Source of the DNA: Oscillospiraceae bacterium
GTDB taxonomy: Bacteria > Bacillota > Clostridia > Monoglobales > WRAG01
DNA length: 38,796 nt
Direction: 5' to 3'
Assembly: GCA_009780345.1 (NCBI GenBank)
Contig: WRAG01000023.1
Coordinates: forward strand, 1 to 38,796
The notes under the pieces are model-generated. The model did no database searches, was not told the origin of the DNA, and saw only the letters and a program-made list of their open reading frames with translations. This document shows, in pieces, positions 5,313-25,578 of the stretch (position 1 is its first letter; every line of letters starts with the position of its first letter). A program made the position numbers and the translations under genes.

Positions 5313-7148
5313 CTAATCGCCCAAATCACGCAATCGGTTAACCGACCAATTCCATCGTTGCCAGCGCGGCGGGAAGCTATTGTAATATCTGCTATTCCGC
5401 GAAAAATAAAGGTTCGCCCGATTTTGCGTCTCAATATCGTCGCTCGCTTGCAACCTCGCGATTTCCGGCGCGGCGTCAACCGATAGTGTCAGCGTATACG
5501 CAATTCCGCCGCCGTTATCGTTGAAATATCTGTTGATTTGGTCGCGCGCGATGATTTGATCCATCGGAATAATGTTGAGCAGCAGATAATAGCTCAGCGC
5601 AACGCCTAAATATACAGCGACAATGTTAAATTTCGGCTTGATAATGTAGAAAAACGTAAACACAAGCCCGACTGCGTTAAAAATAAGGAATCCGAACACC
5701 AAAAATCTTAATCTTGTAAGTCCGTCGTCAGAACCGTATAACCACATACGATAGAATGATGAGGCAAGCAACACAACCGTAATCGCGCATAAATAACAGC
5801 ATAATATTTTGGTGAGCTTCGCCCATTTTCCCGTCTGTTCTTTGGTTAGCCGAACGGTGATAAGAATCAGCAAAATATTTATGCCTGTCAGTAGTAAAAG
5901 CTCGAAAAATCCCCGCCGCGCGTATTGAACGAAGTCCAGTCCATAAGGTAAGTTGTCGGAGCTTGCGAATAAATATCTAAACTGTATCGCTACGAATATC
6001 GTATAAATCGCGAGAATTGATACAAGCAGTATATTAAGCACAATCAAATCGCCGTGTTTGCGTGACGCGTTTGCGGCGGTTCGTTCGTTTTTAGGCTGAT
6101 AAGCCGAACAAATCAAGCCGAAAAGGTAAAATCCAGCCAAAACTCCGAAAAATATCTTCATAAGCATATTGAAATTTAAAGCGTCAATTATATTTCCTAA
6201 AACACTTGAAACACCGTGCGCGAATATTTGATCGGCAGAGGATAGCATAACAATCAAAAATATCAAAAACGGTACCGAAATTGCTACCCCTAACAGCACG
6301 CGTTTTATGGTTTTCGAGCTTTCTTTACTTGGCTTTCCGGGCCACTTAAAGGGCAGAGCGAAAAACCTAAACGGAGACAAAATATTTTCAAGTATGTTCG
6401 CGAGAAACTGAAATGTTGATTGCTTAATTGCCAAACTGTCGGTCATCCATAGAATCATAACGCTGTACAATACGATGATAACGAAGAAGTTAGACACGCG
6501 CCAGATAGTGTTCGCGCTTATAACCGAGTTAAGCGACAGTATAAAAATCGGGATAAACATCAAGAGAGGTTTCTTCTTCGGCGCAATAAAGCAGAGGAAC
6601 ACAAATTGAACGATTATAAAAATAGGCACGCTGATTCCCGCGTTTTGAGGCAGGATTAAGTAGGAAAATCCGATTGCCGAGATGATCAGATAGGATAACA
6701 GTTTCACTTTTAACGGTTTTTCCATAGCGACCGCCTCAATTTTTGAAAATATATTAAATTTCATGCCAAACTTTACTTTCAAAATCGTCAAAATAAGCGC
6801 GATAATCAATCCCGCCATCGAGCCGGCAAAGCCTATAAAATATATCAGTATATATTGGAAAGGGCGATTAATCATCCCAAACGAAAACACTCCGGAAAAC
6901 AACAACACAATTTCAAATATAAACAAAGCACCCATTCCGACTCCGGCGGTTATGAAAAAATTTGAAATCTTTTCGGTTTTCAAAAACAGCATAACGATAA
7001 TCGCAAAAGAACCGCCGATAATTAATATTTCCCATGCTACAAATCGTCCTCCGAGGAAGCTAAGGTTGAACAACAAAATGTTGTTCAGCACTACAAGCGC
7101 TGCCGCCAAGATTAAACCTTTTATCACGTATCTCACTCTTTCGTTCAT
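5313..7148 (-). CDS. DUF4173-type polytopic membrane protein
   Basis: About 611 residues with roughly a dozen hydrophobic segments and a C-terminal soluble tail (DIETQNRANLYFSRNSRYYN onwards, rich in Arg and Trp). It resembles the DUF4153/DUF4173 family of unknown function; I recognise the family by overall layout and by the YGLDFVQYARRGFFELL and YRMWLYGSDDGLTRLR segments. The start at 7148 is chosen because ATGA overlaps the stop of the XRE gene and GGAGGAACAG precedes it; a longer version to 7208 would overlap the regulator. The overlap suggests translational coupling, so membrane protein and regulator are made together. Confidence 0.8.
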   Translation of the reverse strand: MNERVRYVIKGLILAAALVVLNNILLFNLSFLGGRFVAWEILIIGGSFAIIVMLFLKTEKISNFFITAGVGMGALFIFEIVLLFSGVFSFGMINRPFQYILIYFIGFAGSMAGLIIALILTILKVKFGMKFNIFSKIEAVAMEKPLKVKLLSYLIISAIGFSYLILPQNAGISVPIFIIVQFVFLCFIAPKKKPLLMFIPIFILSLNSVISANTIWRVSNFFVIIVLYSVMILWMTDSLAIKQSTFQFLANILENILSPFRFFALPFKWPGKPSKESSKTIKRVLLGVAISVPFLIFLIVMLSSADQIFAHGVSSVLGNIIDALNFNMLMKIFFGVLAGFYLFGLICSAYQPKNERTAANASRKHGDLIVLNILLVSILAIYTIFVAIQFRYLFASSDNLPYGLDFVQYARRGFFELLLLTGINILLILITVRLTKEQTGKWAKLTKILCCYLCAITVVLLASSFYRMWLYGSDDGLTRLRFLVFGFLIFNAVGLVFTFFYIIKPKFNIVAVYLGVALSYYLLLNIIPMDQIIARDQINRYFNDNGGGIAYTLTLSVDAAPEIARLQASDDIETQNRANLYFSRNSRYYNSFPPRWQRWNWSVNRLRDLGD

Positions 7149-7360
7149 GTCTGTTCCTCCTCCGCAAATTCCAAAATGTCGCCAGGCTGGCAGTCGAGAA
7201 CTTTGCAAATTTCCTCTAAAGTCGAAAAGCGTATTGCTTTCGCCTTGCTGTTCTTCAGAATCGACAGGTTCGCCGGCGTTATATTCACCTTTTCGGCAAG
7301 CTCCATAAGCCCCATTTTCCGCTTTGCCATCATTACGTCTAAATTCACTATTATAGGCAT
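7145..7360 (-). CDS. Small XRE-family transcriptional regulator (YozG-like)
   Basis: A 71-residue helix-turn-helix protein of the Cro/CI type with no other domain. The HTH spans about residues 12-66 (MGLMELAEKVNITPANLSIL then FSTLEEICKVLDCQPGDIL), and the acidic tail ends EEEQT. Very short XRE proteins of this kind are known beside DUF2975 membrane proteins (YozG with YoaS in Bacillus subtilis), exactly the pairing seen here. It starts 11 bases after the DUF2975 gene with GGAGGG, and its stop overlaps the next start. It is the natural candidate to bind the palindrome at 7854-7890, but that is inference. Confidence 0.9.
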   Translation of the reverse strand: MPIIVNLDVMMAKRKMGLMELAEKVNITPANLSILKNSKAKAIRFSTLEEICKVLDCQPGDILEFAEEEQT

Positions 7361-7371
7361 ATTTTTCCCTC

Positions 7372-7851
7372 CTATACTGTCAAATCATTTTCTTGCTTAT
7401 GATCCACCGCCTGCTTGAATAAATCTTTCAACGTCAAGCAGAACAGCGTCGCAAGCGCGAAAATCACAACCACAACTGCCGACGCAAACGTGAAATATAT
7501 TATACATCTGATGGCGAAGAGAATGGCGATTATCAAGCTTGCCACGGCGATTTTACGAAAGCAATTTACATTCGCGGGAACGAACGGATTGCCGCCGAGC
7601 AGGGTTTTGAAAAGTTTCTTAAACTGCCATAGGATATAAACCCCGCAAACGCCGGAGAGGAAGAAGATTGCGGTAAGATGAATAAAAGTACTTGAAATTG
7701 CGAAAACACATCCTTGGGCAAGATATATTTCCGTCAGTCCGAACAGATGCACGACAATCCACGGCGTCGCCAAACACGCCAAAATCCCGCCGTAAAACAT
7801 GATATCCACCACAATTTTGGTAACGTAATGCACCCAACTGTTTTTATACAT
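7372..7851 (-). CDS. DUF2975 membrane protein
   Basis: First gene of the four-gene operon, 159 residues with four predicted membrane segments. A short cytoplasmic-looking loop holds FKKLFKTLLGGNPFVPANVNCFRKI, the typical DUF2975 signature between the second and third segments. Function is unknown, but the partnership with a YozG-like XRE protein is widespread in Firmicutes. The ATG at 7851 (MYKNSW) is chosen over an upstream ATG at 7866, because the GGAGGG ribosome binding site lies between them. That binding site is inside the right arm of the palindrome described next. Confidence 0.85.
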   Translation of the reverse strand: MYKNSWVHYVTKIVVDIMFYGGILACLATPWIVVHLFGLTEIYLAQGCVFAISSTFIHLTAIFFLSGVCGVYILWQFKKLFKTLLGGNPFVPANVNCFRKIAVASLIIAILFAIRCIIYFTFASAVVVVIFALATLFCLTLKDLFKQAVDHKQENDLTV

Positions 7852-7853
7852 AA

Positions 7854-7890
7854 AAAATCCCTCCATAAAATTACTTTATGGAGGGATTTT
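7854..7890. promoter_or_regulatory. Perfect 37-bp palindrome over the operon's start site and ribosome binding site
   Basis: Arms AAAATCCCTCCATAAA (7854-7869) and its exact complement (7875-7890) surround a 5-base centre. The palindrome overlaps the -10 box (7886-7891), covers the expected start of transcription (about 7879) and contains the GGAGGG used by the DUF2975 gene. As DNA it is a good operator candidate for the operon's own XRE regulator. In a longer transcript arriving from the OFA gene it would fold into a hairpin that hides the ribosome binding site. Confidence 0.75.
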
Positions 7891-7914
7891 ATCACAACAT
7901 TTTCTATTTGTCAA
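7886..7914 (-). promoter_or_regulatory. Promoter of the DUF2975-XRE-DUF4173-phosphoesterase operon
   Basis: On the minus strand TTGACA (7909-7914), a 17-bp spacer and TAAAAT (7886-7891) form a near-consensus sigma-A promoter, whose -10 end enters the palindrome at 7854-7890. Confidence 0.85.
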
Positions 7915-7963
7915 CAATTATTTATCGAAAAACGATAATTTTTTATCCCGCAACAACATATCA

Positions 7964-9331
7964 CTACGTCGTACTCGTTGCCAACTTGTCTTTTTTGCAG
8001 GTACGAGCGAAAAGGAGTAAGAATACAAGCTGAACCGTAAACATTCCCGCCAAAACGGCATAAAGCATATTTAAAGTACCCAAAACCGGCGCTGACTCAT
8101 ATGCTTTGGCAAACGCGTAAGCGCCCTCTAAATCGTTTACGGTTCCCAATACATAACTTCCCGCTTGATTGTAAATTCTAAACATGGCATAGCCACCCAC
8201 TACTATTCGCTCACCCAAATCTAATATAAACGCCGCGATTTGTGGTCCTACCAACGCCGCAAACGCCCAAGCGGTCAACATGTACCCCTGAATTGTCGCC
8301 AACTGTTTCATTCCGTATTGCTGGTTCAATATTTCGGGCAAGCAAGCAAATCCGGCGCCGAAGAAAAATTGGATTACAAATATTATTATAAACGCCGTCG
8401 AAAAATGGGTCGCCCCAATTACAATCGCAATCCCGCACATAACAATTGACCCAATCGACATCACATAGTAAGGCAAATGCTTTTTATTGGTTTTATCTTG
8501 CGAAGACGCCATTATTAGCCGCCCTACTAAATTTCCGCCGCCGGCGGTGAAAGTGCAAAACAGCACTATCATTGCTCTATTAAGCGTCGAGTCAAGCCCG
8601 AGCATAATATATATTTGCTGCTCGTGGCTCATAAGAGCCAAGCCCGCCGCTATGTTTAAAAACAGAACCATCCATAAAAACCAAAACTTTTTCTTCAGCA
8701 TAACCTCTTTTGCCGAAAGGGTTTTCATTGCCGCGTCAGCCGCTTTAAGTTCCGGTCTGTCGATTATTATGTAAGCGACAAGACATAGAACTCCGAACAG
8801 CGCCGTTAGAATAAAGAACGCTTGATACACCGTGAAGTTCTGCAATAAAAATCCGATAATCGGGTTTCCGATAAGTCCCGCAAGTCCGAATGCGGCAATC
8901 GCAAGACCCGCCGCGAAACCTTTTCGATCATCAAACCACATCATAAGCGTCTTAACAGGCGTAAGATAACCAAGCCCCAAGCCTATCCCTTGAATAGGCC
9001 CAAATCCAACCAATGCTAACACAACGCCTAAGGTGCCGCCAATATAAACTCCGATTCCGGTGATAAGCCAGCCTAATGTGAAAAATATAAACGTGTAAAG
9101 GGACGCTCGCTTAACCGATCGTTCGACAAGCTTTCCGCCGAACGCCGCAGTCATTCCTAAGAAAAATAACGCCAGCATAAAACACAACGTAAGTATTTGA
9201 TTAGTAAAAGCAGGGGCGTGCTCCATAATATCTTCCCTGAACAGCGTCCAGCAATATACCGAACCTGTCGAAAAACTCATGAAAATCATGGGCCAAAAGC
9301 CGCTTATCCACTTACCTTTCGGAATTTTCAT
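7964..9331 (-). CDS. OFA-family MFS transporter
   Basis: A 12-segment major facilitator of the oxalate/formate antiporter (OFA) family, about 455 residues. Signature text is present: an N-terminal SFSTGSVYCWTLFREDI segment, GLGLGYLTPVKTLMMWF followed by DDRKGFAAGLAIAAFGLAG, and LPEILNQQYGMKQLATIQG in the second half. Members move small carboxylates such as oxalate, formate or pyruvate in exchange for others; the substrate is not readable here. It follows an AEC permease by 44 bases, and pyruvate carboxylase is nearby, which points to C3/C4 acid traffic. A GTG three bases earlier is an alternative start; GAGGG serves either. Confidence 0.88.
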   Translation of the reverse strand: MKIPKGKWISGFWPMIFMSFSTGSVYCWTLFREDIMEHAPAFTNQILTLCFMLALFFLGMTAAFGGKLVERSVKRASLYTFIFFTLGWLITGIGVYIGGTLGVVLALVGFGPIQGIGLGLGYLTPVKTLMMWFDDRKGFAAGLAIAAFGLAGLIGNPIIGFLLQNFTVYQAFFILTALFGVLCLVAYIIIDRPELKAADAAMKTLSAKEVMLKKKFWFLWMVLFLNIAAGLALMSHEQQIYIMLGLDSTLNRAMIVLFCTFTAGGGNLVGRLIMASSQDKTNKKHLPYYVMSIGSIVMCGIAIVIGATHFSTAFIIIFVIQFFFGAGFACLPEILNQQYGMKQLATIQGYMLTAWAFAALVGPQIAAFILDLGERIVVGGYAMFRIYNQAGSYVLGTVNDLEGAYAFAKAYESAPVLGTLNMLYAVLAGMFTVQLVFLLLFARTCKKDKLATSTT

Positions 9332-9375
9332 CACAAAAACCCTCTTTCGCTAAAATATATAGTTTAAAACATCAT

Positions 9376-24444: not shown

Positions 24445-24496
24445 AAAAGCGATTGTCAACCTAATTTTAAAATTAGGTTGACAATCGCTTTTTTTT
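24445..24496 (+). promoter_or_regulatory. BirA operator fused with the birA terminator
   Basis: A perfect 48-bp palindrome (24445-24492) contains TTGTCAACC (24453-24461), 14 bases, and GGTTGACAA (24476-24484). This matches the known Firmicutes BirA operator form, two inverted half sites about 14-16 bases apart. The right half site contains the -35 box of bioY, so bound BirA should block it. A T-run of eight follows the right arm, so the same sequence in the birA transcript is a strong intrinsic terminator. Confidence 0.92.
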
Positions 24497-24533: not shown

Positions 24534-25088
24534 ATGACAAAAAAATTATCGGTTCAAGATTTATGCTTTATCGGAATCTCCGTCGCCGTAATCGCGGCGG
24601 CGGCGCAATTCGCAATCCCATTGCCCGGCGGAGTGCCATTTACGTTGCAAACCCTTGCCGTGCCTTTGTTAGCAATCATTCTCGGCGCGAAAAAAGGGTG
24701 CATTGCCGCGCTTGTATATTTGTTGCTCGGAGCGATAGGCGCGCCCGTATTCGCCGGCGCGATTATCGGAATTCCAAGCGGCGCGCATAGGCTAATCGGC
24801 CCATGGGGCGGCTTCCTGCTATCCTATCCTTTTATGATGCTGGCAATCGGTTGGGGCGCGGAAAGCGAGAACAAAATCGAACTTGCGATCACCCTTGTAA
24901 TCGGCTCGCTTACAAACCTCTTAATGGGAACGCTTCAACACTCGTTCTACCACGACGGTGGATTTATGGCGTCATTCGCTGTGGCGTTCGCGCCATTTGC
25001 GCCGCTCGAAGCGGCAAAGCTGGTGCTAGCGTTTATCGCCGGGCCGCAAATACGCAAAGCCGTCGCCAAAATCAGGAGGAAATCATGA
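24534..25088 (+). CDS. bioY: Biotin transporter BioY (ECF S component)
   Basis: Membrane biotin-binding subunit of an energy-coupling-factor transporter, 184 residues with about six segments. FAIPLPGGVPFTLQTLAVPL followed by LAIILGAKKG is the BioY signature; GAIGAPVFAG and GPWGGFLLSYPF also fit. The ECF ATPases and EcfT are not in the window, as is normal for group II systems. AGGAGG precedes the start. The operator upstream shows control by BirA. The stop overlaps the next start. Confidence 0.95.
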   Translation: MTKKLSVQDLCFIGISVAVIAAAAQFAIPLPGGVPFTLQTLAVPLLAIILGAKKGCIAALVYLLLGAIGAPVFAGAIIGIPSGAHRLIGPWGGFLLSYPFMMLAIGWGAESENKIELAITLVIGSLTNLLMGTLQHSFYHDGGFMASFAVAFAPFAPLEAAKLVLAFIAGPQIRKAVAKIRRKS

Positions 25089-25543: not shown

Positions 25544-25578
25544 AAAACAGCCTTGAGTATAATACTCAAGGCTGTTTT
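25544..25578. terminator. Bidirectional intrinsic terminator
   Basis: AAAACAGCCTTGAGTAT and its exact complement are separated by a single base and flanked by A and T runs. It lies between the convergent DUF1284 (+) and membrane protein (-) genes. Confidence 0.9.

Follow-up and report, generated by a model that had tools for sequence, protein, structure and literature searches.

The transposase genes of IS10, IS50 and IS200 are protected against read-through: transcripts that enter from outside fold and hide the ribosome binding site of the transposase. In the IS10/IS50 type, the element's own promoter starts transcription within one of the two arms of an inverted repeat, and only outside transcripts carry both arms. 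We analysed a stretch of 38,796 nucleotides (contig WRAG01000023.1 of an Oscillospiraceae bacterium; "the window") in which a palindrome of similar layout lies in front of an operon for a DUF2975 membrane protein and a small XRE protein. DUF2975, which we take to be identical with YoaS, is present in B. subtilis as well. Pairs of an Xre protein and a YoaS-like membrane protein were listed by Makarova et al. 2009 (PMC2701414; 32 cases) and set aside as not being toxin-antitoxin systems because of the membrane component; the sections of that paper that treat the pairs give no operator for them. The genes, promoter elements and palindrome of the locus are as follows:

7964-9334, minus strand: MFS transporter gene of the oxalate-formate/L-lactate type, co-directional with DUF2975 and upstream of it
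7909-7914, minus strand: -35 element TTGACA
7886-7891, minus strand: -10 element TAAAAT with TG before it (extended -10), overlapping the 5' arm of the palindrome
7880-7885, minus strand: anti-Shine-Dalgarno (anti-SD) sequence CCCTCC, in the gap that separates the -10 from the predicted +1
7859-7864, minus strand: Shine-Dalgarno (SD) sequence of DUF2975, GGAGGG, part of the palindrome's 3' arm
7854-7890, minus strand: perfect palindrome; as RNA, a 16-bp stem with a 5-nt loop, AAAAUCCCUCCAUAAA-GUAAU-UUUAUGGAGGGAUUUU
7852-7857, minus strand: terminator-like U-tract TTTTTT, which follows the G+C part of the stem and doubles as the spacer between SD and ATG
7372-7851, minus strand: gene of the DUF2975 membrane protein (PF11188), which opens the operon; start set by alignment
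7145-7360, minus strand: 71-aa XRE/Cro-C1 HTH_26 protein (PF13443)
5313-7148, minus strand: DUF4153 membrane protein (PF13687), overlapping the XRE stop codon

The start codon of DUF2975 was placed at 7849-7851, because the proteins of relatives also begin with MYKNS; the ATG that lies further upstream within the palindrome, at 7866, was ruled out on the same grounds. The best NCBIfam matches of the transporter were L-lactate and oxalate/formate transporters, both below the cut-off. Comparison of the XRE protein with the PDB gave no match, an Rfam search of the sequence matched only a tRNA, and a single-protein scan of the genome contigs produced no matches.

The initial annotation had described an exact palindrome with 16-bp arms over a near-consensus promoter and the ribosome binding site of DUF2975, and this anatomy was borne out. 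The arms (7854-7869 and 7875-7890) are complementary at 16 of 16 positions (100%) with a spacer of 5 nt, and a search allowing up to three mismatches found a single copy in the 2.05-Mb genome. When the whole window was shuffled 20 times with dinucleotides preserved, the longest perfect hairpin had a mean of 10 bp and never exceeded 12 bp, so that a palindrome of 16 bp is far beyond chance. The promoter, TTGACA-17-TAAAAT, matches the consensus at 11 of 12 positions. Its transcription start was predicted as 7 nt past the -10; since these seven bases end at 7879, the predicted start (about 7879) falls in the 5' arm, and the palindrome thus overlaps the -10, holds the predicted start and contains the SD. 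The anti-SD lies between the -10 and this predicted start and should therefore be missing from the operon's own transcript.

Long perfect hairpins are in themselves normal for this genome, because two more of such length, both intergenic, occur in the window. The one at 25544-25578, a perfect hairpin of 16 bp with the form A4...T4, separates convergent genes and is likely a bidirectional terminator. The other, at 24445-24492, is a perfect palindrome with 22-bp arms. It is flanked by birA, which is of the bifunctional ligase/repressor type, and by the neighbouring gene at 24534-25088, which is BioY-like by eye. The palindrome holds TTGTCAACC-N14-GGTTGACAA, by eye a BirA-type operator; its 3' arm has the -35 of a TTGACA-17-TATAAT promoter, and a T8 tail is present, so that one element unites an overlapping terminator, operator and promoter.

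As the anti-SD is upstream of the predicted +1, only read-through RNA could form the hairpin at the DUF2975 promoter, and folding gave clearly different results for the two transcripts. The read-through RNA folds with -21.3 kcal/mol (z -6.4), which none of 200 shuffles equalled, whereas the RNA from the predicted start reaches -1.7 kcal/mol and lacks a stable structure. The probability that the SD is unpaired was calculated as 0.00 in the read-through RNA and 0.61 in the operon's own RNA. These values suggest the following mechanism. A transcript begun at the operon's promoter would start inside the 5' arm, without CCCTCC, and its SD would stay open. A transcript arriving from the co-directional transporter gene would have both arms, and the 16-bp hairpin would bury GGAGGG. 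Since the read-through RNA folds and the operon's own RNA does not, the hairpin would insulate DUF2975-XRE-DUF4153 from read-through, and expression would follow the operon's own promoter. We consider it somewhat probable that the palindrome works in this way, as RNA and solely in transcripts entering from upstream. The earlier suggestion that the SD is hidden in transcripts from the OFA-type gene thus gains support from anatomy, folding and, as described below, covariation in two relatives.

DUF2975 loci were gathered from whole genomes and GTDB contigs, and 91 were left once duplicates had been removed; in each of the 91, DUF2975 is followed by an XRE gene. Two relatives, L057 (TATAATGCCTCCATAAATCATTTATGGAGGCATT) and L089 (TATAATGCCTCCTAAGAGAAAATTATGGGAGGTATT), have the same architecture as the window (-10, anti-SD, loop, SD, ATG). 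Their read-through RNAs fold with -20.1 and -14.6 kcal/mol, respectively, and the RNAs from the predicted starts of the three loci reach about -1.7 to -1.9 kcal/mol. In L089 the SD is only 0.25 unpaired even in the operon's own RNA when a longer downstream stretch is included. In an alignment of the three loci 93.6% of the cells are paired, compared with about 43-55% when the partners are slid. Three pairs are altered on both sides, one of them being C-G, G-C and G-U across the three species. The covariation was matched in 19 of 500 shuffles and comes from three related sequences only; we regard these compensatory changes as suggestive only. Pairing of the SD with the -10 region at this strength was observed at 3 loci, with 0.25 expected when arms were swapped between loci.

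The strong hairpin is limited to these 3 of about 85 scorable loci, all within one clade of seven, of which the other four lack it. This narrow distribution, together with the finding that the family as a whole has no excess pairing of the -10 region with the SD, would fit a palindrome without a selected role, produced by mutation when template switching perfected a quasi-palindrome around the SD. Such a neutral origin is nevertheless highly improbable in our judgement, as the pairing is kept in the three relatives through changes on both sides, and all three place their arms exactly on the gap between -10 and +1 and on the SD. A possible fourth case, L005/L063, was rejected: its fold is stable, but its pairing does not stand out from that of swapped arms (p 0.02, with 69 loci compared). 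A genome search for CCTCC-N-GGAGG-N-ATG gave 4 matches, equal to the reversed control, and the device is therefore not genome-wide. Elsewhere in the same genome (L142, G000:C14:25997-26038), the SD of a carboxypeptidase-like gene is covered by a 9-bp stem, CCTCCGAAT/ATTCGGAGG, whose loop has a -10-like sequence.

The palindrome might instead serve the transporter gene as its intrinsic terminator, overlapped by the promoter and SD of the next gene because of tight packing, with the pairing of the SD as a by-product. It has an A-tract, a 16-bp stem and a U6 tail, the G+C-containing stem directly preceding the U-tract as in intrinsic terminators, and no other terminator-like hairpin is listed on the minus strand from the transporter stop to DUF2975. 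The window also has the A4-stem-T4 hairpin between convergent gene ends and, at the birA/bioY junction, another promoter that overlaps a terminator-like palindrome. However, the hairpin of L057 is present without a U-tract, T-rich spacers between SD and ATG are also found in relatives that have no hairpin, and L089 has no gene running in from upstream. The first two observations make hiding of the SD the trait that is common to all three loci, and we consider it rather unlikely that termination explains the palindrome. The divergent orientation of the upstream gene in L089 also means that read-through from that gene is not expected there, which counts against insulation from this neighbour. 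A terminator would have an insulating role as well and differs solely in the step that is blocked. Termination and SD hiding would both insulate the operon and can coexist; in the window, read-through transcription may additionally end at the U-tract, immediately ahead of the ATG.

The initial annotation had proposed that the XRE protein of the operon might use the palindrome as its DNA operator. In this role, for that or another dimeric regulator, it would block the promoter at -10/+1; a perfect dyad in the classic position of a repressor site would suit it, and the inner arms, CCTCCATAAA/TTTATGGAGG, are kept exactly in L057. This proposal did not hold up when the same palindrome was sought upstream of the DUF2975-XRE pairs: it was absent from nearly all of the 91 loci, including loci that have an almost identical XRE protein, and its strong form (3 of about 85) thus does not accompany the XRE gene (91/91). 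A different dyad occupies the operator position at the -35 in all but a few loci (88/91), and its half-sites, TTTATYG-N5-CRATAAA, are reversed relative to those of the palindrome, CATAAA-N5-TTTATG. The spacing of the arms also varies among the relatives, the loop of L057 being 2 nt shorter, and the G-U pairs of L089 break the symmetry of the DNA. Both features suit an RNA better than a rigid DNA operator, and we judge the palindrome improbable as an operator. The sites to which this comparison refers are the following:

7922-7938, minus strand: conserved dyad TTATCG-TTTTT-CGATAA (TTATCGTTTTTCGATAA), probable XRE operator
7901-7917, minus strand: position of a second, weaker dyad, which overlaps the -35 in relatives (TATTGACAAACRAT) and is degenerate in the window (TGTTGACAAATAG), according to column counts

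Within 200 nt upstream of DUF2975, TTATYG-N5-CRATAA with at most one mismatch was found in 88 of the 91 loci, compared with 0.8% of shuffles. The dyad lies 5' of the -35, at a distance of 7 nt from TTGACA in 82 of 87 loci, and weaker dyads recur at 21-bp intervals on both sides of it, one of which contains the -35. As the pattern had been derived from the 91 loci, 30 phylum-wide loci fetched afterwards served as an independent check; 27 of them have the dyad with at most one mismatch. The dyad at 7922-7938 thus accompanies the XRE gene and keeps its place in the promoter, and it is this site, rather than the palindrome, that probably serves the XRE protein as operator. About 26 bp separate it from the transporter stop in the window; neither this dyad nor the terminator-like U-tract after the stem had been noted in the initial annotation. 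The exact dyad occurs only twice elsewhere in the genome, both times inside genes; regulation therefore looks local, and an XRE regulon extending beyond the operon is disfavoured. As far as the position and conservation of this separate dyad beside the -35 indicate, the XRE protein probably uses it to autoregulate the operon's promoter. A published operator for the DUF2975-XRE pair or a description of the dyad was not found in the literature searched, and the literature on DUF2975/YozG did not cover regulation.

In some loci (L051, L058/L003, L084/L010 and L089), the XRE dyad is extended into near-perfect palindromes with arms of 21-29 bp, which join two or three dyads around the -35. In the Bacilli-type DUF2975 loci of the phylum-wide set (L145-L163) it mostly reads TTTATTG-TAAAA-CGATAAA, about 64 nt before the start codon and apparently closer to the -10 than in the Clostridia set.

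Most bacterial genes follow closely on another gene, and there is seldom an explanation of how an operon under tight regulation escapes the effects of read-through. With one arm placed upstream of the operon's own start, a hairpin would mark the origin of each transcript at no extra cost. More tentatively, we propose that an anti-SD in the gap between -10 and +1 silences translation of foreign read-through transcripts only, here at a chromosomal regulator operon, and that the same promoter carries a so far undescribed, Bacillota-wide DUF2975-XRE operator. The conserved dyad is an immediately testable candidate operator for a large, uncharacterised family of membrane protein-XRE regulators.

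The locus combines features of several known systems. It shares with the YoaS-like + Xre pairs the position of DUF2975 beside a small Xre protein. With its A-tract, strong stem and U6 tail behind the upstream gene, the palindrome looks like an intrinsic (Rho-independent) terminator; unlike such a terminator, it overlaps the -10 and SD of the next gene, and one relative lacks the U-tract. It is the neighbouring dyad that is like the operators of Cro/C1-type (XRE) proteins in form and position, whereas the palindrome differs in sequence, has reversed half-sites and is not conserved with the XRE gene. By analogy, the locus resembles the read-through protection of IS10/IS50: in the calculated folds the read-through RNA hides the SD and the operon's own RNA does not (0.00 versus 0.61 unpaired). 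The +1, as predicted from the promoter, would fall within the 5' arm. In contrast to IS10/IS50, what is guarded is a chromosomal regulator operon, DUF2975-XRE-DUF4153, with no mobile element evident at the locus. Because the protected gene is not a transposase gene, the palindrome is no member of the IS10/IS50 type, but would work like one.
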